Both the position numbers and the translations under genes were made by a program. Below the pieces are notes generated by a model. The model worked only from the letters and a program-made list of their open reading frames with translations, made no database searches and was not told the DNA's origin. Below are positions 3,993 to 27,213 of a DNA stretch of 38,805 bases, piece after piece (the first letter of the stretch is position 1; each line of letters begins with the position of its first letter). The DNA comes from Chloroflexota bacterium (lineage in GTDB: Bacteria > Chloroflexota > Dehalococcoidia > Bin125): assembly GCA_026707335.1 (NCBI GenBank), contig JAPOXB010000054.1, positions 1 to 38,805 of the forward strand, in the 5' to 3' direction.

Positions 3993-4082
3993 CGCCGCGG
4001 CGCGCTCGGCGCCGCCGCCCGACCGGTACACTCAGCGGACCGGCGCTTTGTTCGGATGCGCTCGCAGCCTCCGGGAGCAGCC

Positions 4083-5145
<1,063 letters not shown>

Positions 5146-5162
<17 letters not shown>

Positions 5163-6108
5163 CCGGCTGCTGGACTGGCTGTCCCCGCCCGCCGCCCTGC
5201 TGGGCGAGTCGGAGGATCCCGCCGTGGCCGAGGCGCGCATCCGCCGCGAGGTGCGCGCGATCGAGATCCGGGCCCGCACCGCCCTGCGCGAGCGCATGAC
5301 CGGCGACTTCCGCAGCGCCTTCCGCGGCCGCGGCCTGGAGTTCGCCTCGATCCGCGCCTACACGCCCGGCGACGAAGTGCGCCTGATCGACTGGAACGTC
5401 ACCGCCCGCCGCGGCGCACCGTACGTCAAGGAGTTCGTCGAGGAGCGCGAGCGCACGCTGTTGATCGTGCTCGACGTCAGCCCCTCTGGGGCCTTCGGGA
5501 CGACCGGCCGCAGCGTGCGCCGCTTCGCGGTCGAGGTGGCGGGGCTGCTGGGTTTCTCCGCCGCCGCCAGCAACGACCGCGTCGGCGCGATCGCCTTCAG
5601 CGACCGCACGGAGTACCTGCTGCAGCCCGCCCGCGGCGACGCGCACGTCCTGCGCCTGCTGCACGACCTGCTGCACCTCCGGCCGCGGGGCGGCGGCAGC
5701 GACCTGGGCGGGGCGCTGGAGCACGCCGCGCGCACACTGCGCGGCGGCAGCATCGTGGCGGTCATCTCGGACTTCCAGGGCGACGCCGCAGAGGCCGGCG
5801 ACTGGCAGCCTGCCCTGCGCCGGCTCGCCGTCGCGCACGACGTGCTGGCGCTGCACGTGCACGACCCCGCCCAGGCCCGGCTGCCCGACGACGGCCTGCT
5901 GACCATCGAGGACGCCGAGTCGGGCCGCGTCGTCACCGTCGACCCGGCCGCGATCGGCGACGACTTCGCCCGCGAGGACGCCCGCCGCGGGCAGGCCGTC
6001 CGGCGGCTGCTCCGGGCCAGCGGGGCCGACTACCTCTCGCTGCCCAGCGACGCGCCCGCCGCCCCCGCCCTGGCCAGGCTCTTCCGCCTGCGGACCCAGC
6101 GCCGATGA
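5146..6108 (+). CDS. DUF58 domain-containing protein
   Basis: GRGLEFASIRAYTPGDEVRLIDWNVTARRGAPYVKEFVEERERTLLIVLDVSPS; overlaps the moxR 3' end. Confidence 0.9.
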
Positions 6109-7091
6109 GCCCCCGGCGGCTGGCCGTCGCGCTGCTGGGACTCGTGGCGCTGCTCGCGCTGGGGGCGCCGTCGGCCGCCGCGCAGGCGCCGCCGTCGCCG
6201 CTGCCGCCCGGTGTGGCCGTCGGCGTCGAGGTGGAGCGCGAGGGCGACACCATCGGCGACCCCGTGCGGCTCACGGTCGTCGTCACGCACCCGCCCGGGG
6301 GCGAACTGCTCGTGCCCCCGCCCGAGGGTCCGATGGGCGCGCTGGAGCCGGCGTCGCCGGTCGTGACGCGCGACACGACGGCCGACGGCCTCACCCGCGT
6401 CACGCTCGTCTACGAGACGCGCGCCTTCGCGACCGGCCCGCTGCCGCTGACGCCGCCCGCGCTCTCCTACCGCCGCGACGGCCTGACGACCGCGATCCAG
6501 CCCGCCGGACGGATCATCGACGTGCGCTCGCTGCTGCCTGCGGACGGGTCGGCGGCGCCCCGCGGCCTGAAGCCGGCCGAGCAGGTCGGGGCGACGGGTT
6601 TCCCGACCGTGCCGGTCGCCGTGGGCGGATCGATCGCCGCGCTGCTGCTCCTTGCGGTGGGGGTGACCCTCGCCCGGCGGCGGCGGCCGGCGCCACCGGC
6701 GACCGCCGCTCCCGGCCCCGGGGCGCTGGCCGGCCGCGACCTCGATGCGATCGCCGGCGCCGGCCTCCTGCCCCACGCCGTCGACGAGTTCTGCGCGCGG
6801 ATCAACGGCGCCGTGCGCGGCTATCTGGCCGCGCGCTACGGCCTGCCCGCGCTGAACCTGACCGCGTCGGAACTGGCCGAGCGCCTGGCCCGCGCCGGGG
6901 CCGACGCGGGCACGGTGCAGCGCGTGCGCAGCCTCTGTCAGGCCTGCGATGGCATCGCCTACGCCGGCTCGACGCCCAGCGCGGCCCGCGTCGCCCGCTA
7001 CCTCGACCTGGCCCAGGCCATCGTGCGGGAAGGCCCGGCCCCCGCCGCCGCACCGGCCGGCCCCACCGCCCCTGCGAGCGAGGTGCAGTGA
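6105..7091 (+). CDS. BatD-like/DUF4381-like membrane protein
   Basis: Signal peptide, beta-rich ectodomain, single TM (VAVGGSIAALLLLAVGVTLARRRR), ATGA overlap, position in Bat-type operon. Confidence 0.6.
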   Translation: MSPRRLAVALLGLVALLALGAPSAAAQAPPSPLPPGVAVGVEVEREGDTIGDPVRLTVVVTHPPGGELLVPPPEGPMGALEPASPVVTRDTTADGLTRVTLVYETRAFATGPLPLTPPALSYRRDGLTTAIQPAGRIIDVRSLLPADGSAAPRGLKPAEQVGATGFPTVPVAVGGSIAALLLLAVGVTLARRRRPAPPATAAPGPGALAGRDLDAIAGAGLLPHAVDEFCARINGAVRGYLAARYGLPALNLTASELAERLARAGADAGTVQRVRSLCQACDGIAYAGSTPSAARVARYLDLAQAIVREGPAPAAAPAGPTAPASEVQ

Positions 7092-8047
7092 TGCGCTTCG
7101 CCGACCCGGAACTGCTGGTCCTGCTGGCGCTGCTGCCGCTGTTCGTCTGGCTGCTGCGCCGCGACGGCCGACGTCATCCGGCCAGCCTGCGCCTGCCCAG
7201 TTTGGCCGCGCTGCCCGCCGCGGCCCGCGCCGGCGGCCGCTCGTGGCGGACGCGCACCCTGCCCTGGCTGCCCGTCCTGCGGCTGGCCGCCGCCGCGCTG
7301 ATCATCATCGCCCTCGCGCGCCCGCAGACCGCCGACGCCGAGGCCAGCACCACCGCCGAGGGCATCGACATCGTGCTCGCGATCGACACCTCGCTGAGCA
7401 TGGTGCAGGAGTCGATCGGGGACGAGCGGCGGATCGAGGCGGCCCGGCGCGTGGCCCGCGACTTCATCGACCGGCGCGGCGCCGACCGCGTGGGGCTGCT
7501 CGTCTTCGAGTCCCGCACGCTGGTCCTCAGCCCGCCGACGCTCGACCTGGACGCCATCGACCGCCTGGTGGCCGACACGATGCGCACCGGCCTGCTGCCC
7601 GGCGGCACCGCCGTCGGCCTGGCGCTGGCGAAGTCGGTCGACCTGCTGCGCGAGTCGGACGCGCCCAGCCGCATCGTCGTGCTGCTCACCGACGGCGAGG
7701 ACAACGTGCGCACCGTGCGCCCCGTCGACGCGGCCGGCATCGCCGAAGCGCTGGGCGTGCGCGTCTACACCATCGCCATCGCCGACCCGGGCGCCTACCA
7801 GGGCGTCGTCGATGAGCTCGCCCTGCGGTTCATCGCCGACCGCACGGGCGGCGAGTACTTCCGCGCCTCCGAGCCCGGCGACCTGGAGGCCGCCTACGCC
7901 GCCGTCGACGCCCTCGAGCGGGCGCGGCTCGACACGGAGGAGTTCACCGTCTTCCGCGAGCGCATGCCCTGGTTCCTCATCCCCGCGATGGCGCTGATCC
8001 TGCTCGAGTTGCTGGGCCGCGCCACCTGGTGGAGGCGCGCGCCATGA
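7091..8047 (+). CDS. VWA domain membrane protein (BatA-like)
   Basis: N-terminal FADPELLVLLALLPLFVWLLRR, MIDAS motif VLAIDTSLSM, LLTDGEDN, C-terminal TM. Confidence 0.88.
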   Translation: MRFADPELLVLLALLPLFVWLLRRDGRRHPASLRLPSLAALPAAARAGGRSWRTRTLPWLPVLRLAAAALIIIALARPQTADAEASTTAEGIDIVLAIDTSLSMVQESIGDERRIEAARRVARDFIDRRGADRVGLLVFESRTLVLSPPTLDLDAIDRLVADTMRTGLLPGGTAVGLALAKSVDLLRESDAPSRIVVLLTDGEDNVRTVRPVDAAGIAEALGVRVYTIAIADPGAYQGVVDELALRFIADRTGGEYFRASEPGDLEAAYAAVDALERARLDTEEFTVFRERMPWFLIPAMALILLELLGRATWWRRAP

Positions 8048-9903
8048 GCCTCGCACCCCTGCCGCCCCTCGCCCTCTCCCCGCTGACACAGTTCGGCGAC
8101 CCCGCCCTGCTCACGCTGCTGCTGCTCGGGTTCCTGGCGGGCGGCCTCTCGCTGCGCATCCTGCGCCGGCGCGCGCTCCGGGTGACGCGGCTGCTGGACC
8201 GGGGCGGCGGGCGCGTGCTGGCGGGCGCCGACCCCCGGCGCGACCTCTGGAAGTTCGGCCTGATCAGCCTGGTCGTGGTGCTGCTCGCGCTCGCCGTCGC
8301 CCGGCCGCAGTTCGGCGAGCGCACGCGGACGCTGGAGCAGCAGGGCGTCGCGATGGTCGTCGCGCTCGACGTGTCGCTCAGCATGGCGGCGCAGGACACC
8401 GCCCCCGATCGCATGCAGGCTGCCCAGACGGAGCTGGCGGGACTGCTCGACCGGATGTCGGGCGACCGCGTCGGCCTCGTCATCTACGCGGGCGAGGCGC
8501 TGGTGCGCTTCCCGCTCACCCGCGACCTGACCGCCGCCCGCGATCTGATCGGCGCGATGCAGCCGGGCGAGCGGCTGGTGCAGCCGGGAACCGACGTCGC
8601 GGCGGCCATCACGCAATCGCTGGCGCTGCTGGAGACGACCCCCTCGCGGACGCGCGTGATCCTGCTCGTCGGCGACGGGGAGAGCCTGAGCGGCGACGCC
8701 CTCGCCGCGGCACGGATGGCGGCGGCCGCCGACGTGCACATCTTCACGGCCGGCGCCGGCAGCGAGGCGGGCGCCACGATCCCGGTGGTCAACCGCAACA
8801 CGACCGAGACGGTCACGAAGATCGACGCCCGCACCGGCGAGCCGGTCATCACCCGCCTCGACAGCGCGGCGCTGACGGCGCTGGCCGACCGGGGGCGGGG
8901 GCGCTTCGTGCGGCTGGACCAGCCCGGCGCCCTCAGCGACCTCGCCGCCGACTTCGAGGCGCTGGAGGCGTCGCGCTTCCACGTCACGACCGAGCGGCAG
9001 CCCCGCGAGCGCTTCCAGATCGCCCTCGCGCTGGCCCTGGCGCTGCTGCTCATCGAGCCGCTGATCGCGGCGCGCGCACCCCGGCGGGCGTCGCCGGTCG
9101 CGGCGCGCGTCCGATGGCTGCGGCGGCGGCGGCTGCTGTTCGCGGGGCTGCTGCCGATCGTCGCGCTGCTGGCCGCGTCGTGCGGTGACTTCGCGGCCGA
9201 GCGCAACGCGGCCGGGACCGCCGCCTTCGACGAGGGCCGCTTCGCCGACGCCGCCGTCGCCTACCGCGAGGCGCTCGCGGCCGAACCCGGCGACGCGCGC
9301 CTGGCCCTGAATCTGGGCCGCGCCCTGCACGCCCTCGCGGAGTACGACGCCGCCGTCGCGGCCTCGCGCCGCGCCCTCACCACCCACGACGACGCCCTGG
9401 CCGCCCGCGCCTACTACCAGATCGGCGTGCACCACTTCGCGCGGGACGACCTCGTCGCGGCGCGCAGCGCCTACATCGAGGCGCTGCTGCTCGACCCCTC
9501 GGACGCCGACGCCAAGCTGAATCTGGAGATCGTGAACCGGTTGCTGGCGGCGCTCGCTCCGCCTCCGGCGGCGGAGGACGGGACGCCGGGCTCGGGCGAG
9601 GGCGACGGCGGCGGCGCCGAGGGCGGCGGCGGGCGGGGGCCCGGCGCGGACGGTGATGACTCCCCGGTCGACACCGCGCCCGGCCGGCTGGCGGGCCGCG
9701 CCGACGTCCCCGGCGAGGACGACCAAAGCCTGGACGCCGGGCCGGCCGCGGAGGCCCTGCGGGAGGCGATCCAGGCCTTCGACCGCAACAATCCCACGCT
9801 CGAGGAGGCGCTGGCGATCCTCGAGGCCCTGCGCGCCATCGAGGAGACGCGGGGCGCGTCGGGCATGCTGGGCGTCGAGGTGGCCGGCCAGGACGACTAC
9901 TAG
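8044..9903 (+). CDS. VWA plus TPR membrane protein (BatB-BatC-like fusion)
   Basis: MIDAS motif ALDVSLSMAAQD, LVGDGESLSGD, then an internal TM/lipobox and TPR-like repeats (AAGTAAFDEGRFADAAVAYREALAAEPGDARLALNLGRALHALAEYDAA). Confidence 0.88.
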   Translation: MSLAPLPPLALSPLTQFGDPALLTLLLLGFLAGGLSLRILRRRALRVTRLLDRGGGRVLAGADPRRDLWKFGLISLVVVLLALAVARPQFGERTRTLEQQGVAMVVALDVSLSMAAQDTAPDRMQAAQTELAGLLDRMSGDRVGLVIYAGEALVRFPLTRDLTAARDLIGAMQPGERLVQPGTDVAAAITQSLALLETTPSRTRVILLVGDGESLSGDALAAARMAAAADVHIFTAGAGSEAGATIPVVNRNTTETVTKIDARTGEPVITRLDSAALTALADRGRGRFVRLDQPGALSDLAADFEALEASRFHVTTERQPRERFQIALALALALLLIEPLIAARAPRRASPVAARVRWLRRRRLLFAGLLPIVALLAASCGDFAAERNAAGTAAFDEGRFADAAVAYREALAAEPGDARLALNLGRALHALAEYDAAVAASRRALTTHDDALAARAYYQIGVHHFARDDLVAARSAYIEALLLDPSDADAKLNLEIVNRLLAALAPPPAAEDGTPGSGEGDGGGAEGGGGRGPGADGDDSPVDTAPGRLAGRADVPGEDDQSLDAGPAAEALREAIQAFDRNNPTLEEALAILEALRAIEETRGASGMLGVEVAGQDDY

Positions 9904-18120: not shown

Positions 18121-19063
18121 CGCTGTGCACCTCCGACGGCCGCAGCGGCTGCCCGCCCATGGTCGTGCCCGCGAGGGCGTTTGTCACGCGTGAGAACTGC
18201 GGCGCGATGATGCCGCCCAGCAGGCAGCGGCCCCCGGGCCGCACGCCGGCGAGCAGCGCCGGCAGGACCCGCACGATCACGCCGGCCCTGATGTTCGCCA
18301 CGACCACATCGTACGGCGCGCCGCCGATCGGTGGGGCGTCGGCCTGGGCCACGGTCACGCCGTCGAGGCCGTTCAGCGCGACGTTGCGCCGCGCCGCGGC
18401 CACCGCTTGCGGATCGAGGTCGAGCGCCAGCACCGCGGTCGCGCCCAGCCGGGCGGCGGCGCAGGCCAGCACGCCCGACCCCGTCCCGAAGTCGAGCACC
18501 CGGTCGCCCGGACGGACGGTCCGCTCCAGCGCGGCCAGGGCCATCCGCGTCGTGGGATGGTCGCCCGTCCCGAAGGCCAGCCCCGGCTCCAGGTCGACGA
18601 CGACCTCGCCCGCCCGCGGCGTCTCGGCGCTGGGCCGCGGTCGCAGCAGCAGCCGGCCGATGCGCAGCGGCCGCAGATGGCGATGGAAGGCCGTCTCCCA
18701 CTGCGAGCGTCGCAGCGCCTCGAACCGCAGCCGGTCGGCGTCCGCGCCGCGCCCGGCGTCCCGCAGCAGCCGCCGCAGCCGCGCCAGCGCGTCGTCGAAC
18801 CGCGCTGCTGCCACATAGCACCGCACCGACGGCTGCGTCGCGGCGGGCGGCCCGTCCGGTGGCGGCGCGACCGGCGCCACGTCCGCCGGCTGCCGGACCG
18901 GCCACTCGACGACGACTCCCGCCGGGGTCACCCGCTCGAACAGGGCCGCCACCGGCTCCACCTCGCCGGCGGGCACGGCCAGCGAGATCCGCCACCACGC
19001 CTCCTCTGCGACGGGGGAGACGGGCGCGCCGCCGGCGTCGCCGGGGTCAGGCGCCGAACGCAT
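18068..19063 (-). CDS. prmA: Ribosomal protein L11 methyltransferase
   Basis: [56 protein letters not shown]. Confidence 0.92.
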
Positions 19064-20162
19064 CCTTGATTCGCGAGAAGAAGCCGCGGCCGTTGCTCCG
19101 CGTGGCCTCGTCGAGCACGCCATCGAGTTGCTCGAAGAGGTCGCGCTGGGCGGCGCTCAGCTTCGTCGGCACCTGCACATCGACGCCGACCAGCAGGTCG
19201 CCGCGCGAGCGGCCGCGCAGGTGCGGCACGCCGCGCTTGCGGATGCGGAAGACGGACCCAGCCTGCGTGCCGGCGGGGATCTCCAGCTCCTCCGCGGGGT
19301 CATCGAGGGTAGGCACCTCGACCGCCGTGCCCAGCGCGGCCTGGGCCACCGTGATCGGCATCGTCACGCGCAGGTCGTCGCCGTCGCGCTCGAAGAGGTC
19401 GTGCGGCCGGACGCGGAAGTCGACGTAGAGGTTGCCGCGCGGACCGCCGCGCTGTCCCGCGTCGCCCTCGCCGCTGAGCCGCATCTGGGAGCCGTTATCG
19501 ACGCCGCCCGGCACCTTGACCTGCAGCCGCCGGTTGCGGCGCTCGCGCCCCAGCCCGCCGCAGTTGCCGCAGGGGTGCGTCACGATCGACCCCTCGCCGG
19601 CGCAGCGATCGCAGGCGGAGACGTTGACGAACTGGCCGAAGACGCTGCGCTGGACGCGGCGCACCTCGCCGCTGCCCTGGCACTGCGGGCAGGCCTCGGG
19701 CGGCTGGCCGGGCTCGTGGCCGGCGCCGCCGCAGACCGTGCAGTCCTCCAACCGGCTGACGCGGATCTCCTTCTCGACGCCGAAGACGGCCTCCTCGAAC
19801 TTGAGCTCCTGGCGCAGGCGCAGATCGTCGCCGCGGATGGGGCCGCGCGACGCGCCGCGGCCGCCGAAGAACGCATCGAAGATGTCGCCGAAGCCGCCGA
19901 AGTCGAACCCCTCGAAGCCGCGCGACGGGCCGAAGTCGGCGTTCGGCCCGTACTGGTCGTAGCGCGCCCGCTTCTCGGGGTCAGAGAGGATCTCGTAGGC
20001 CTCGCCGACCTCCTTGAAGCGCTCGGTCGCGTCGGCCGCCTTGTTGCGGTCGGGGTGGTACTGCATCGCCAGCTTGCGGAAGGCGCCCTTGATCTCCTCC
20101 GCCGTGGCGGAGCGATCGACGCCGAGCACTTCGTAGAAGTCGCGCTTGCTGGCGGCGGCCAT
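19047..20162 (-). CDS. dnaJ: Molecular chaperone DnaJ
   Basis: J domain with HPD (QYHPDRNK), four CxxCxGxG-type zinc motifs ([32 protein letters not shown]). Confidence 0.98.
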
Positions 20163-20233
20163 GATTCGCAATCGTAGCGGAGCGGCGCGAGCGGGCCCCG
20201 CCGCCGCTCAGCCGATCCGCGGCCCGGCGGTCG

Positions 20234-22171
20234 CTAGACCTCCCGGAACTCGCCCTCGACGGTGCCGGCCTCCTCGCCGGCCCCGTCGGCGCCGTCGGTA
20301 CCGTCGGGTCCGGCCGACTGCCCGTCGGCGCCCGGAACGCCCTCCTCACCGGGAGGCGGCGCGCTGCTGGCGTAGATCTTCTCGCCCACCTTCATCAGGG
20401 CCGCGTTCAGCTCGTCGAGCGCCGTGCGGATGGCGTCGGCGTCGGGCGTCTCCGCCGCCAGCGCCTCGCGCACGGCGGCGATCTTCGCCTCGACCTCGCC
20501 CTTCAACTCGTCGTCGATCTTGTCCTCTTGCTCGGCCAGCATCTTCTCGGCGCGATAGGCCGACGAATCGGCGATGTTGATCAGCTCGACGCTCTCGCGG
20601 CGCGCCTTGTCCTCCTCGGCGTGCAGCTCGGCGTCGCGCCGCATCTGCTCGACTTCCTCCTCCGCCAGGCCGGAGGCCGCCTGGATGGTGATCTTCTGCT
20701 CCTTGCCCGTGCCCTTATCGACCGCGGCGACGTTGAGAATGCCGTTGGCGTCGATGTCGAAGGTGACCTCGATCTGCGGCATGCCGCGCGGCGCGGGCAG
20801 GATGCCGTCGAGCACGAACTTGCCCAGCGACTTGTTGTCGGCGGCCATCTCGCGCTCGCCCTGCAGGACGTGGATCTCGACCTGCGGCTGGTTGTCGGCG
20901 GCGGTCGAGAAGACCTGGCCCTTGCTGGTCGGGATCGTGGAGTTGCGCTCGATCAGGGATGTGCGCACGCCGCCCAGCGTCTCGATGCCCAGCGTCAGCG
21001 GCGTCACGTCGAGGAGCAGGACGTCCTTCACGTCGCCCTTGAGCACGCCGGCCTGGATGGCGGCGCCGATCGCGACCACCTCGTCGGGGTTGACCGATCG
21101 GTTCGGCTCGCGGCCGAAGAACTCCTGCACCTTGGCCTGCACGAGCGGCATCCGCGTCTGGCCGCCCACCAGCACGACCTCGTGCACCTGCGCGGCCGAG
21201 ACGCCCGCGTCGGCCAGGGCGGCCTTGCAGGGCCCCAGCGTCGACTCCACCAGGTCCTCCGTGAGCTGCTCGAGCTTGGCCCGCGAGAGGGGGATGTTGA
21301 AGTGCTTGGGGCCGCTGGCGTCGGCCGTGATGTAGGGGAGGTTGACCTCGGTGGTCTGCGTGCTGGAGAGCTCGATCTTGGCCCGCTCGGCGGCCTCCTT
21401 GAGCCGCTGCAGGGCCATCCGGTCCTCGCGCAGGTCGATGCCCTGCTCCTTGCGGAACTCGTCCACCAGGAAGTCGATCACGCGCTGGTCGAAGTCGTCG
21501 CCGCCCAGGTTCGTGTTGCCGTTGGTCGATTTGACCTGGAAGGTGCCCTCGCCGATCTCCAGGATCGAGATGTCGAAGGTGCCGCCGCCCAGGTCGTAGA
21601 CGGCGATGACCTGCTCGTCCGTCTTCTCCAGGCCGTAGGACAGCGCCGCCGCCGTCGGCTCGTTGACGATGCGCAGCACGTTGAGCCCGGCGATCTTGCC
21701 GGCGTCCTTGGTGGCGTTGCGCTGGCTGTCGTCGAAGTAGGCGGGGACGGTGATCACCGCCTCCGTCACGCTCTCGCCCAGGTAGGCCTCGGCGTCGGCC
21801 TTCAGCTTCTGCAGGATCATCGCCGCGATCTCGGGCGGGCCGTAGGCCTTGCCGCTCATCTTCACCCAGGCGTCGCCGTTGTCGGCATTCGCGATCTCGA
21901 AGGGCAGCAGCTTCGCCGCCGCGCGCACGATGGAGTCGTCGTAGCGCCGCCCCATCAGCCGCTTGACGCTGAAGATCGTGTTGTCCGGGTTGGTGATCGC
22001 CTGGCGCTTGGCGACGGTGCCCACGACGCGCTCGTCGTCCTTGCTCATCGCCACCATCGAGGGCGTCGTGCGGTTGCCCTCCTGGTTGGGGATCACGATC
22101 GGCTCGCCGCCCTCCATGACGGCGACGACCGAGTTGGTCGTGCCCAGATCGATACCGATGACGTTCGCCAT
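20234..22171 (-). CDS. dnaK: Molecular chaperone DnaK
   Basis: [44 protein letters not shown], full-length Hsp70. Confidence 0.99.
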
Positions 22172-22216: not shown

Positions 22217-22816
22217 TTACTCGCCGTCGCTGTTCTCGTTCTCGTCCGCGTCGCCGTGCCCCACGACCACCAGCGCCGGCCGCAGCACGCGCGTGCCCAG
22301 CAGGTATCCCTTGCGCACCTGCTCCAAGACTTCGTTGTCGGGGCCGGGGGCGCGGCCCACCGCCTCGTGGTACTGCGGGTCGAAGGGCTGGCCGGCCGCC
22401 GCGATCGGCTGCACCCCCAGGCGCTCCAGCACCTGCACGAGGTCCTTGCGGATCAGGGCGATGCCCTCCGCCCAGGCGCCGGGATCCTCTTCGCGGTTCG
22501 CCTCGAACGCGCGATCGAAGTTGTCCACCACCGGCAGCAGCGACAGCAGCAGCCCGGCGGTGGCCTGCGCCGCCCGCTCATCGACCTCGCCGGCGCTGCG
22601 CCGCTTGAGGTTCTCGTAGTCGGCGCGCGCCCGCTTCCAGGCGGCCAGATGCTGCTCCGACTCCGCCCGCAGGCGCTCGACATCCAGCAGCGCCGCCTCC
22701 AACGTGGCGGCCGGCTGGGCGTCGGCGTCCTCGGGCGGCGCGCCGGGGTCCGCGCCGTCCGATCGCGCGTCGGGCGGCTGGGGCCCGGCGGGCCCCTCTG
22801 CATCCGTGGTCGTCAT
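22217..22816 (-). CDS. grpE: Nucleotide exchange factor GrpE
   Basis: RARADYENLKRRSAGEVDERA, LLPVVDNFDRAFEA, FDPQYHEAVGR, VRKGYLLGTRVLRPALVVVG. Confidence 0.96.
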   Translation of the reverse strand: MTTTDAEGPAGPQPPDARSDGADPGAPPEDADAQPAATLEAALLDVERLRAESEQHLAAWKRARADYENLKRRSAGEVDERAAQATAGLLLSLLPVVDNFDRAFEANREEDPGAWAEGIALIRKDLVQVLERLGVQPIAAAGQPFDPQYHEAVGRAPGPDNEVLEQVRKGYLLGTRVLRPALVVVGHGDADENENSDGE

Positions 22817-23835
22817 CCGTAAACCCGGTCCATCATCTCTTCGAGCAGCCCGCTCAGGTAGCGCACCGTCGCGACGCCGCGGCCGTAGCGCATCCGCGTG
22901 GGCCCGACGAGCGCGACGTAGCCCGACATGTCGGCCTGGTCGCCGTACGGCGCGACGACCACCGAGCACTGGTGGAGTTCGTCGGCCGGGTTCTCGTCGC
23001 CGATCATCACGCTGACCCCGGCGCCGCCCAGCGACTCCGGGGGCACGACGCGGTCCGTCGCGCGCTGGTCCACCAGCGACACGATGTCGAGCATGCCGCG
23101 GTGGTCGCGCTGGAATTCGGGCTGGCCCAGCATGCCGGCCACGCCCTCCACCCGGACGGCCGCCTCCCGCGCCGACTCCTCGTTGAGGATGCCGGTCAGG
23201 GTCTCGATCATGCGCTGCTCGGTCACGTCGTCCGCCGACGGGTCGCGGCGCAGCTCCGTCACCGTGCGGCCCGACACCCGCTCGTTGAGGCGCGCCGCCA
23301 GCACGCTCAATTCGGCCTGCTCGAACGGGCTGTCGAGGGGCACGAGCTGCTTCAGCACGCGCGCCTCCCGCAGCACGACGACCAGCAGCGCGAGGATCTC
23401 GTTGAGGCCGATCAGTTCCAGGTGCTTGACCTGCAGCTCGCGCGAGCGCGGCGGCGAGACCAGGGCCAGCAGCCCCAGCGATCGCGCCAGCAGCCCGGCG
23501 GCCAGATCCGCCCACTCGTCGAGCTCGGGCGCGGCCTGGAAGAACTGATGGCGGATGGTCGCCTTCTCGTCGCCGGGCAGGTCGGCCTGCCCCATCAACG
23601 ACTCCACGTACATCCGGTAGCCCCGGTCCGAGGGCACCCGCCCGGCGGAGGTGTGCGGCTGCTCGAGCAGCCCCTCCTCCTCGAGCGCCTGCATCTCGTG
23701 GCGGATCGTGGCGGGGGAGGCGGGCACGCCGTACTTGTCGTGGATGGTGCGCGAGCCCACGGGCGCGGCCGTCTCCACGTACTCGCGCACGATGATTCGC
23801 AGGATGCCGGCGCGTCGATCGGTGACCGCAGCCAT
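22813..23835 (-). CDS. hrcA: Heat-inducible transcription repressor HrcA
   Basis: RRAGILRIIVREYVETAAPVGSRTI, GVPASPATIRHEMQALEEEGLLEQPHTSAGRVPSDRGYRMYVE; preceded by CIRCE. Confidence 0.97.
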   Translation of the reverse strand: MAAVTDRRAGILRIIVREYVETAAPVGSRTIHDKYGVPASPATIRHEMQALEEEGLLEQPHTSAGRVPSDRGYRMYVESLMGQADLPGDEKATIRHQFFQAAPELDEWADLAAGLLARSLGLLALVSPPRSRELQVKHLELIGLNEILALLVVVLREARVLKQLVPLDSPFEQAELSVLAARLNERVSGRTVTELRRDPSADDVTEQRMIETLTGILNEESAREAAVRVEGVAGMLGQPEFQRDHRGMLDIVSLVDQRATDRVVPPESLGGAGVSVMIGDENPADELHQCSVVVAPYGDQADMSGYVALVGPTRMRYGRGVATVRYLSGLLEEMMDRVYG

Positions 23836-23851
23836 CGGGCCTCTCCATCCG

Positions 23852-23878
23852 TTAGCACTCTCGACATGAGAGTGCTAA
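23852..23878. promoter_or_regulatory. CIRCE operator (HrcA binding site)
   Basis: Perfect TTAGCACTC-N9-GAGTGCTAA. Confidence 0.98.
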
Positions 23879-23890
23879 CTTCGCAATAGA

Positions 23891-23920
23891 AGGCTAGCAG
23901 CGCCCCGCCCAGGAGGTCAA
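23891..23920 (-). promoter_or_regulatory. Sigma70-type promoter of the hrcA operon
   Basis: Minus strand TTGACC-N18-TAGCCT immediately upstream of CIRCE. Confidence 0.6.
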
Positions 23921-24015
23921 TCGAACGTGTCAGAACGTGGAGATCCGGCCGCCGCGGCCCCCTCTGACGACTGCGCCGCTTGGCCGTCGCGCGCCGGGAC
24001 GGCACACTGCTAGAC

Positions 24016-25221
24016 ATGCCGGACGAACCCCGCCGCGTCGTGATCACGGGCGTCGGCGCGATCAGCGCCGCCGGCCACGACCCGCCCGCCGTCTGGGAGG
24101 CGCTGCTGACGGGCAAGCCGGCGCTCACGCCGCTCCCCGGCGACGCCTTGGATCGCCCCGCCGTCGCGGCACGGATCGCACACTACGACGGCCCGGCCGG
24201 CGTCCCGGCCGACTTCACCGCCCGGCTCAGCCGCGCCTCGCAGTTCGCCCTCGACGCCTCCATCCAGGCCGTCGCCGACGCCCGCATCGGCTTCAACGCC
24301 GAGAACGCCTACGCGGTCGCCTCGCTCATCGGCTCCGCGCACGGGCCCGACCCCGCCGGTCCGCCCGCGCCCCTGTTCAGCGCCGGGCTGGCGGGCGCGA
24401 GCACGGGCCTGAACATCGCCGGGCCCAGCTACGCGATCGACGCCGGCGCGGCCTCCGGCTTGGTCGCGATCCATCAGGCGGCGGAGATGGTGCGCAGCGG
24501 CAGCGTGCGGGCGGCCCTGGCGGGCGGCGCCGACGCCCCCCTGCGGCCGGAGGTGCTGGCCGCCTACGAGGCCCGCGGCCTGCTCTCGTCGCAGGCGACC
24601 GCCACCGCCCAGCGCCCCTTCGACCTCCTGCGCGACGGCATGGTCCTGGGCGAAGGCGCGGCCGTGCTGCTGCTGGAGGACCGGGAGTTGGCCGTGATGC
24701 GCGGCGCCCACATCTACGGCGAGCTGATCGGCGGCGCCGTGACGGCCGGGCCGGCCGCCGACGGGGCGCCCCCCACCGACGTCGACATCGCCCGCCAGGC
24801 CGTCGGCCGCGCCCTGCGCGAGTCCGGCCACAGCCCGGGCGAGATCGACATGGTGTTCACGGCCGGCGCGGCCACCAAGGCCGGCGACGCCCGGGAAACC
24901 GACATCCTGGAGCGCTCCTTCGGGTCGCGCATCCTCGATATGTACGTGACCGCCACGACGCCGGTACTGGGCTACACCGTGGGGGCGAGCGGCGCCCTGG
25001 CGGCCGTCGCGGCGCTCTTCGCGCTGGCCGAGCAGATGGTGCCGCCGCATCCCGTCTACGCTGAGGCGGACCCGGACTGCGCCCTCGACATCACCGTCCG
25101 CGCGCAGCGGGACCACCTGCACGCGGCCCTCGTGAGCGCCTACGGATCGGCCGGGCAGAACGCTGCGCTGCTGATCGGCGCGCACCGGGCCGAGCCCGGC
25201 GACGAACTGCCGATGGCCTAG
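24016..25221 (+). CDS. Beta-ketoacyl-synthase-like protein lacking catalytic residues
   Basis: Thiolase-fold features MPDEPRRVVITGVGAISAAG, HQAAEMVRSGSVRAALAGGADAPL, LRDGMVLGEGAAVLLLE, VLGYTVGASGALAAVAALFAL, SAYGSAGQNAALLI; active-site Cys, both His and Lys not conserved. Confidence 0.8.
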   Translation: MPDEPRRVVITGVGAISAAGHDPPAVWEALLTGKPALTPLPGDALDRPAVAARIAHYDGPAGVPADFTARLSRASQFALDASIQAVADARIGFNAENAYAVASLIGSAHGPDPAGPPAPLFSAGLAGASTGLNIAGPSYAIDAGAASGLVAIHQAAEMVRSGSVRAALAGGADAPLRPEVLAAYEARGLLSSQATATAQRPFDLLRDGMVLGEGAAVLLLEDRELAVMRGAHIYGELIGGAVTAGPAADGAPPTDVDIARQAVGRALRESGHSPGEIDMVFTAGAATKAGDARETDILERSFGSRILDMYVTATTPVLGYTVGASGALAAVAALFALAEQMVPPHPVYAEADPDCALDITVRAQRDHLHAALVSAYGSAGQNAALLIGAHRAEPGDELPMA

Positions 25222-25245
25222 CCGGCCGGCGGAGGGACGAGCGCC

Positions 25246-25911
25246 ATGGACATCGCCTGGATCGGCCACGCGGCGTTCCGTCTGCGCGGACGCGAGGCCG
25301 CCGTCGTGCTGGACCCCTGCCCCTCGAGCACCGGCTTCCGGCTGGGCCGCCCGCAGGCCGACATCGTCACGATCTCCAACCCGGCCCCCGAACACGGCTG
25401 GGACCAGGGCGTCGGCGGCGAGCCGGTTCGCCTCGACGCGCCGGGCGAGTACGAGATCCACAACGTGCTCATCACCGGCGTCGTCACGAACGACCACGCG
25501 GCGGCCGCGGCGGACGATGATGAGGCGCCGGTGCGCAACGTCGCCTTCGTCGTCACGATCGACGACGTCATCGTCGCGCACCTGGGCGACCTGCGCGGGG
25601 AGCCCTCGCCGCGGGCGATGGAGGAGTTGAGCCGGGCCGACGTGCTGCTCGTGCCGGTGGGCGGCAACGGCCGCCTCGACGCGAAGGCCGCCGTCAAGGT
25701 GGCCGGCGCGATCGACCCCCGCCTCGTCATCCCGATGCTGCACAAGGTGGGCCCCGAGACGGCGTCGCTGGACACCGTCGACAAGTTCCTCAGCGCGATG
25801 GGCCTGAGCGCGGAGGGCGGCGGCGCCCCGCTCGACAACCACATCAACGTGACGCGGGGCGGCCTGGGCGAGCACACGGCCGTGCAGGTACTCGCCCCGC
25901 GGGGCGACTGA
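25246..25911 (+). CDS. MBL-fold (COG2220/UPF0173-like) protein with degenerate metal motif
   Basis: MDIAWIGHAAFRLRG start, DIVTISNPAPEH, APGEYEI, VIVAHLGDL, PRLVIPMLHK. Confidence 0.75.
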   Translation: MDIAWIGHAAFRLRGREAAVVLDPCPSSTGFRLGRPQADIVTISNPAPEHGWDQGVGGEPVRLDAPGEYEIHNVLITGVVTNDHAAAAADDDEAPVRNVAFVVTIDDVIVAHLGDLRGEPSPRAMEELSRADVLLVPVGGNGRLDAKAAVKVAGAIDPRLVIPMLHKVGPETASLDTVDKFLSAMGLSAEGGGAPLDNHINVTRGGLGEHTAVQVLAPRGD

Positions 25912-25947
25912 GCGAGCCGGGGAATACCGGGGAGGAGCCGCGACGCC

Positions 25948-27213
25948 CTAGGCGTCGGCGGTCGCCAGCGACTCCAGGAACTCCGAGTTGGACTTCGTCC
26001 GCGAGAGCCGGTCGAGCAGGCGCTCGGTGGGCTCGGTCGAGCTGCCGTTGCTGCTCAGCATCGACATCATCCGGCGCAGCAGCCACATCTTCTGCAGCTC
26101 GTCGCCGTTGAGCAGCAGCTCCTCGCGGCGGGTGCTGCTGGCGGCGATGTCGATCGCCGGGTAGATGCGCCGCTCGGCGAGGCGGCGGTCGAGCCGCACC
26201 TCCCAGTTGCCGGTGCCCTTGAACTCCTCGAAGACCACGTCGTCGAGGCGGCTGCCCGTATCGACCAGGCAGGTGGCGATGATCGTCAGGCTGCCGTTGT
26301 CCTCGGCCTTGCGGGCGGCGCCGAAGAAGCGCTTGGGCGGGTACAGCGCCACCGGGTCGATGCCGCCCGAGAGCGTGCGCCCGCTGGTCGGCATCTCCAG
26401 GTTGTAGGCCCGCGTCAGCCGCGTGATCGAATCGACCAGGATGACCACGTCGCGGCCGCACTCCATCAGCCGCTTGGCGCGCTCCAGCGCCATCTCCGCG
26501 ACCCGCGTGTGGTCCTCGACCGGGTCGTCGAAGGTGGAGGCGAAGACCTCGCCGCGCACCTGACGGCGCATCTCGGTGACCTCCTCGGGCCGCTCGCCGA
26601 TCAGCACGACCATCAGGTGCACGTCGTTGTAGTTCGAGGCGATGCCGTTGGCCAGCGCCTGCAGCAGCATCGTCTTGCCGGCCTTGGGCGGCGACACGAT
26701 GAGCCCCCGCTGGCCGCGGCCCATGGGCGCGATCAGGTCCACCAGCCGCCCCGAGAGCTCCGTGGGGTCGTCGGTCTCCAGCATGAAGCGCTCGTTGGGG
26801 AAGACGGCGGTGAGATTCTCGAAGTGGGGGCGCTTGAACGCCTCCTCGGGGCTCATGCCGTTGAGGGCGTCGACGCGCAGCAGCCCGTAGTACTTCTCGC
26901 CGTCCTTGGGCGCGCGCACCTGGCCGGTGACGTAGTCGCCCGTGCGCAGCCCGAAGCGGCGCACCTGCGACTGCGAGACGTAGACGTCGGTGTTCGTGGG
27001 CAGCAGCGACTCGCCGCGCAGGAAGCCGTAGCCGTCGTCGACGATGTCGATCACGCCGCCGGCGAGGATGTGGCCTTGTTTCTCGCTGTGCGCCTGCAGC
27101 AGCTTGAAGACGAGGTCCTGCTTGCGGAGCCCGCCGACGCCGGGGATCTCCAGCTGCCGGGCCCGTCCGAGGAGTTCTTCCCGTGTCAGGGATTCGAGTT
27201 CAGCGATATTCAC
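25948..27213 (-). CDS. rho: Transcription termination factor Rho
   Basis: [66 protein letters not shown] start ([20 protein letters not shown]) preferred over the longer ORF. Confidence 0.96.

Follow-up and report, generated by a model that had tools for sequence, protein, structure and literature searches.

SpoVAD is a thiolase-fold protein that binds dipicolinate, and the chain length factor (CLF) is a ketosynthase (KS) paralog without the catalytic Cys. The CLF constitutes the KS-beta half of the KS-CLF heterodimer (PMC10132072). Absence of the whole catalytic set is unusual for a ketosynthase-fold protein. Here we describe such a protein, KS0, encoded by the ORF at 24016–25221 of a 38,805-nucleotide window (the whole stretch of DNA analysed) from a Dehalococcoidia genome of 2.64 Mb in 265 contigs. 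The features of the locus are the following:

24016–25221, + strand: KS0, FabF-type ketosynthase homolog of 401 aa, non-catalytic with strong support (ORF, domains, alignments, model)
25246–25911, + strand: MBL-fold protein (PF13483, E = 1.6e-35), 24 bp after KS0, with HxHxDH degraded to NxAxEH
23852–23878, no strand: perfect CIRCE operator TTAGCACTC-N9-GAGTGCTAA between hrcA and KS0, with 0 expected by chance
22813–23835, − strand: hrcA, divergent from KS0 (neighbourhood annotation)
22217–22816, − strand: grpE, syntenic in relatives; start inferred, the longest in-frame ORF beginning further upstream
20234–22171, − strand: dnaK (neighbourhood annotation)
19047–20171, − strand: dnaJ (neighbourhood annotation)

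The KS0 ORF is uninterrupted, and its product matches the N- and C-terminal ketoacyl-synthase domains of Pfam (PF00109 and PF02801; E = 1.7e-32 and 1.1e-17) along the full length expected of FabF / KAS II enzymes, but lacks their catalytic set (Cys-His-His triad, Lys, Glu). The top NCBIfam model is fabF (TIGR03150), which scores 218 bits and thus falls short of the equivalog cut-off of 493.75, and the top PDB sequence match is Synechocystis FabF (1e5m; phmmer, E = 1.2e-52). The ACP_syn_III domain (PF08545) that marks FabH / KAS III was not matched. An AlphaFold2 model built from the 20 KS0 orthologs alone (pLDDT 73, pTM 0.83) resembled the FabF fold with a TM-score of about 0.85, and a second one, with f66 (see below) and FabF sequences added, reached pLDDT 89.3 and pTM 0.92 and was placed by Foldseek on FabF structures with TM about 0.9 and rmsd about 2.5. 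The FabF sequences in its alignment mean that the second model is no independent proof of the fold, but the first agrees with it, and KS0 is predicted with high confidence to have the FabF fold. The KS0 locus gave no match to anti-phage defence systems in PADLOC, and the accessible portions of the literature on inactive KS paralogs and hrcA-fabH links, mainly non-subscription papers, yielded no description of KS0.

Alignment of the KS0 orthologs of 20 genomes of the order with a reference set of 18 Dehalococcoidia FabF-type KSs located the replaced and the newly fixed residues (all on the + strand):

24448–24450, + strand: Ala145, catalytic Cys column; Gly in 17/20 and Ala in 3/20 orthologs, Cys in 18/18 FabF
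24748–24780, + strand: residues 245–255, KS0-specific motif GPxxDGxxPTD replacing FabF loop 2 (alignment)
24862–24864, + strand: Ala283, first catalytic His column; Ala in 20/20 orthologs, His in 18/18 FabF
24958–24960, + strand: Thr315, active-site Lys column; Thr or Ser in 20/20 orthologs, Lys in 18/18 FabF
24973–24975, + strand: Tyr320, second catalytic His column; Tyr in 18 orthologs, Phe in one and His in one, His in 18/18 FabF
25000–25002, + strand: Ala329, conserved active-site Glu column; Glu gone in 20/20 orthologs, present in 17/18 FabF
25048–25050, + strand: His345, newly invariant; His in 20/20 KS0, Thr in 18/18 FabF

Cys, the first His, Lys and Glu are thus lost in all 20 orthologs and the second His in 19, the exception being the KS0 of the sister genome G001. 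The initial annotation had read both His replacements at the codons listed above, and the alignment bears this out; it was also right that the glycine-rich scaffold motifs are intact. Its loss of the nucleophile stands, but not the position: MAFFT and phmmer alignments assign the Cys column to Ala145 rather than to Gly144 (24445–24447). Similarly, the active-site Lys is indeed absent, but its column lies five residues before the second His, not two to four. None of the sequence alignments restores a Cys-His-His triad in KS0, nor does the canonical one occur in any ortholog of the order.

The losses extend beyond the catalytic residues. The loop-2 Asp (Asp265 of E. coli FabF), highly conserved across KSs (PMC7138838), is replaced by Gly245 in KS0 and by Gly in 20/20 orthologs. 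A Lys of the ACP-docking helix, present in 18/18 FabF and corresponding in our own alignment to Lys65 of E. coli FabF, has given way to Trp in most KS0s and to Asp in the window's copy; K65 mutants of E. coli FabF show reduced ACP crosslinking (PMC7138838). Moreover, KS0 lacks about 20 residues after residue 110 relative to FabF. The new motif has seven residues invariant in 20/20 KS0s (G245, P246, D249, G250, P253, T254 and D255), its segment 248–252 being modelled with low confidence, and the positions invariant only in KS0 include His109, Arg223, Asp249, Gly250, Thr254, Arg260, Tyr310, His345 and Asp366. Such KS0-only invariant residues indicate new constraint, not decay. A non-catalytic KS0 is strongly supported; the protein would be a paralog of FabF with the thiolase fold retained, presumably as a dimer, and would be incapable of forming an acyl-enzyme, of decarboxylating malonyl-ACP and of docking ACP in the manner of FabF.

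KS0 is conserved throughout the order as sampled here, namely in 20 incomplete Dehalococcoidia MAGs of one family, every one of which has exactly one copy, with 50–78% identity to that of the window. In a search with a KS0 profile the order genomes gave E-values of 1e-172 or better, whereas the top matches from an outgroup of 148 class and 301 phylum genomes, which samples rather than exhausts these taxa, reached about 1e-72; the gap implies that, among the genomes sampled, KS0 proper is seen in this order only. A contig scan with the single KS0 protein gave no match, and an alignment-based scan with narrow patterns returned order members only. Between close relatives the dN/dS of KS0 is 0.06–0.14 (Nei-Gojobori), and between the window's genome (G000) and G001 it is 0.215, comparable to the catalytic FabF of the same pair (0.195; HrcA 0.115, DnaK 0.116, MBL-fold protein 0.141). 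KS0 is therefore under purifying selection. The earlier suggestion that the fold is maintained and the gene not decaying is supported by the single copy in 20/20 genomes, the FabF-like dN/dS (about 0.06–0.22 overall), the newly invariant residues and the predicted FabF fold. A lone decayed copy is ruled out by conservation in 20/20 genomes.

The genomic setting is equally constant. The initial annotation had noted that KS0 is divergent from the heat-shock operon, and hrcA-grpE-dnaK-dnaJ indeed run in the opposite direction, an arrangement kept across the order: KS0 is followed by the MBL gene in 19/19 relatives extracted and, in the 18 with a contig long enough to include hrcA, is divergent from it, and CIRCE is present in 18/18 relatives whose sequence covers the region. 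The hrcA-CIRCE-KS0-MBL arrangement is thus constant, with 0.4–1.3 kb of additional DNA between KS0 and MBL in some relatives. With 16 bp to the start of hrcA and 137 bp to KS0, CIRCE is positioned as an hrcA operator. A promoter and terminator scan of 23700–26000 found neither. Further upstream in the window (4056–9903) lies a BatA/BatB-like set of a MoxR AAA ATPase and VWA/TPR proteins.

The neighbour of KS0 belongs to PF13483 by sequence (E-value as listed) but lacks the HxHxDH motif and the downstream His ligands of the metallo-hydrolases in this family; its nearest solved relative, TM0207 (1vjn), reads SHQHFDH at the site of SNPAPEH in the window. Among the order MBLs the first His is kept in 0/20 (always Asn or Arg), the second in 1/20, and the His of GDLGH and that of PMHY in 0/20 each, whereas class homologs keep these four in 9, 8, 10 and 9 of 10, respectively. 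The His and Asp of HLGD are retained in the order. Given the loss of metal-ligand His residues, the MBL neighbour has probably lost its metal site too. In family f17, the MBLs at L115 and L119 (G035 and G069) have lost some ligands (SVHDRAH, SHSDPAH, HLGA/HLGG), which indicates that loss in the MBL family occurred more than once. The MBL of G001 (L038 8971–9693) carries a proline-rich insertion at residues of about 90–120.

In other families of the class, hrcA and an MBL gene frequently stand close together and divergent, and the gap between them may hold FabH, an ECF sigma factor or nothing; FabH followed by an MBL with its ligands is a frequent arrangement. By coordinates, FabH is near MBL in 14 of the 23 FabH-bearing genomes present in both searches. 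A small membrane protein sometimes accompanies FabH in this slot; BioY-like is a guess, as it has no NCBIfam match at 1e-10. Of the five genomes of family f66 with a visible locus, three have hrcA-FabH-MBL without a KS and two, G149 and G481, have hrcA-FabH-KS-MBL:

L218 6296–9392 and L219 5387–8421 (G149 and G481): FabH-KS-MBL row, divergent from hrcA
L218 7483–8712 and L219 6519–7754: KS between FabH and MBL
L172 3915–8843 (G011:C13, a genome of the window's order, not of f66): fabG-fabD-KS-KS-acpP, its two KSs being tandem, catalytic and FabF-type

The f66 KS resembles KS0 in its slot between hrcA and MBL, in its Cys replaced by Gly, in the loss of the first His (Tyr in f66) and in its grouping in the trees; it differs in that it keeps the Lys, the second His and a full-length loop, has FabH upstream and has a downstream MBL with its ligands. 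KS0 and the f66 KS fell on one side of a branch supported at 96/94 in one tree, there together with the KS of L037 (G035), and at 99/94 in a second tree with other sampling, from which the L037 KS was omitted because of its very long branch. The long branches of KS0 and the f66 KS themselves mean that the grouping might be partly an artefact, and support for it is good but not final. The L037 protein (G035:C9 49211–53371) is a Dehalococcoidia KS with Cys replaced by Ala and the first His by Ser, and ORFs resembling P450, ferredoxin and enoyl-CoA hydratase are its neighbours. The f66 KS is plausible as an intermediate towards KS0. In the window's order PF08545 detected FabH in 0/20 genomes, and a FabH protein query against the order gave just one weak 26-bit partial match, which raises the question of how fatty acid synthesis starts there. 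One order genome has the fatty-acid gene set fabG-fabD-KS-KS-acpP listed above, and a tandem catalytic KS pair is also present on G000:C53, in the window's genome. The idea that KS0 replaced FabH in position, prompted by the frequent presence of FabH in this slot, is weakened by the occurrence of FabH, KS and MBL together in the two f66 genomes.

As catalysis and FabF-like ACP docking appear to be gone while fold and selection are intact, we infer that a binding or scaffold role is the most likely one for KS0; the new binding or regulatory role put forward in the initial annotation is likewise a hypothesis. We accordingly favour, with some reservation, the reading that KS0 is a pseudo-ketosynthase, i.e. 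a former companion-type KS that is now retained for binding or as a scaffold rather than for catalysis. On the simplest account, a FabF paralog would have entered the FabH-MBL gene set divergent from hrcA, between FabH and MBL, and lost its nucleophile, reaching a state resembling the f66 KS; in the window's order the rest of the active site, FabH and the MBL ligands would then have been lost, the order of these events being itself a reconstruction. KS0 would act most likely as a homodimer, perhaps through the 245–255 motif, His109 and His345, and the adjacent MBL-fold protein may work with it. Since an MBL gene commonly lies beside hrcA in the class where no KS is present, the pairing of KS0 with MBL might reflect position alone. 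It is a speculative extension, in our view doubtful, that both are former enzymes, disarmed in one and the same lineage, that now form a non-catalytic regulatory or sensor complex tied to hrcA/CIRCE and couple membrane-lipid synthesis to stress across the order.

The best surviving alternative, although we hold it to be unlikely, is that KS0 serves as a CLF-like subunit, pairing with a catalytic FabF in trans, such as one of the tandem KSs, to form a heterodimer, and shaping initiation or chain length. The KS-CLF heterodimer provides the precedent, and the absence of a partner KS that the initial annotation reported holds within the window but not beyond it: two f66 genomes have FabH directly upstream of the counterpart, which moreover keeps Lys and the second His, and catalytic FabFs lie elsewhere in the window's genome, so that such a partner role is possible. 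Nevertheless, no KS gene adjoins KS0 among the order-genome neighbours checked, the tandem catalytic KSs are already paired with each other, and KS0 lacks the CLF-type Gln and is shortened after residue 110, a segment that presumably corresponds to the chain-length-setting part of the actinorhodin CLF. Less probable still is a new enzyme in which His109, His345, Asp249, Asp255, Arg260 and Tyr310, invariant specifically in KS0, would form a replacement active site; the number of polar residues invariant only in KS0 and a selection as strong as that on FabF speak for it, but the searches made found no known thiolase-fold enzyme with such a residue set. A functionless relic persisting slowly by chance in a well-placed operon, which the absence of catalytic residues from KS0 and MBL alike might suggest, is strongly disfavoured and very improbable in view of 20/20 intact copies at 50–78% identity to the window's, dN/dS far under 1, new invariant residues and an intact predicted fold.

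The steps from enzyme to non-enzyme are testable, given the order-wide single copy, the FabF-like selection, the putative f66 intermediate and the seemingly disarmed neighbour. Compared with FabF / KAS II (TIGR03150), KS0 shares homology over the whole length, a predicted fold at TM about 0.9 and the glycine-rich scaffold motifs, but has the Cys, both His, Lys, Glu and loop-2 Asp replaced, is about 20 residues shorter and scores 218 against the 494-bit cut-off. Like the CLF of type II PKS, KS0 is a FabF-type paralog without the nucleophile; however, it has no adjacent KS-alpha, either in the window or in relatives, where hrcA and MBL flank it and the gaps were examined, and it has neither Gln at the Cys site nor a PKS cluster. 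Instead, its locus is single-copy, conserved and beside hrcA. SpoVAD belongs to another family and another setting, but offers the likeness of a thiolase fold that serves binding instead of catalysis.
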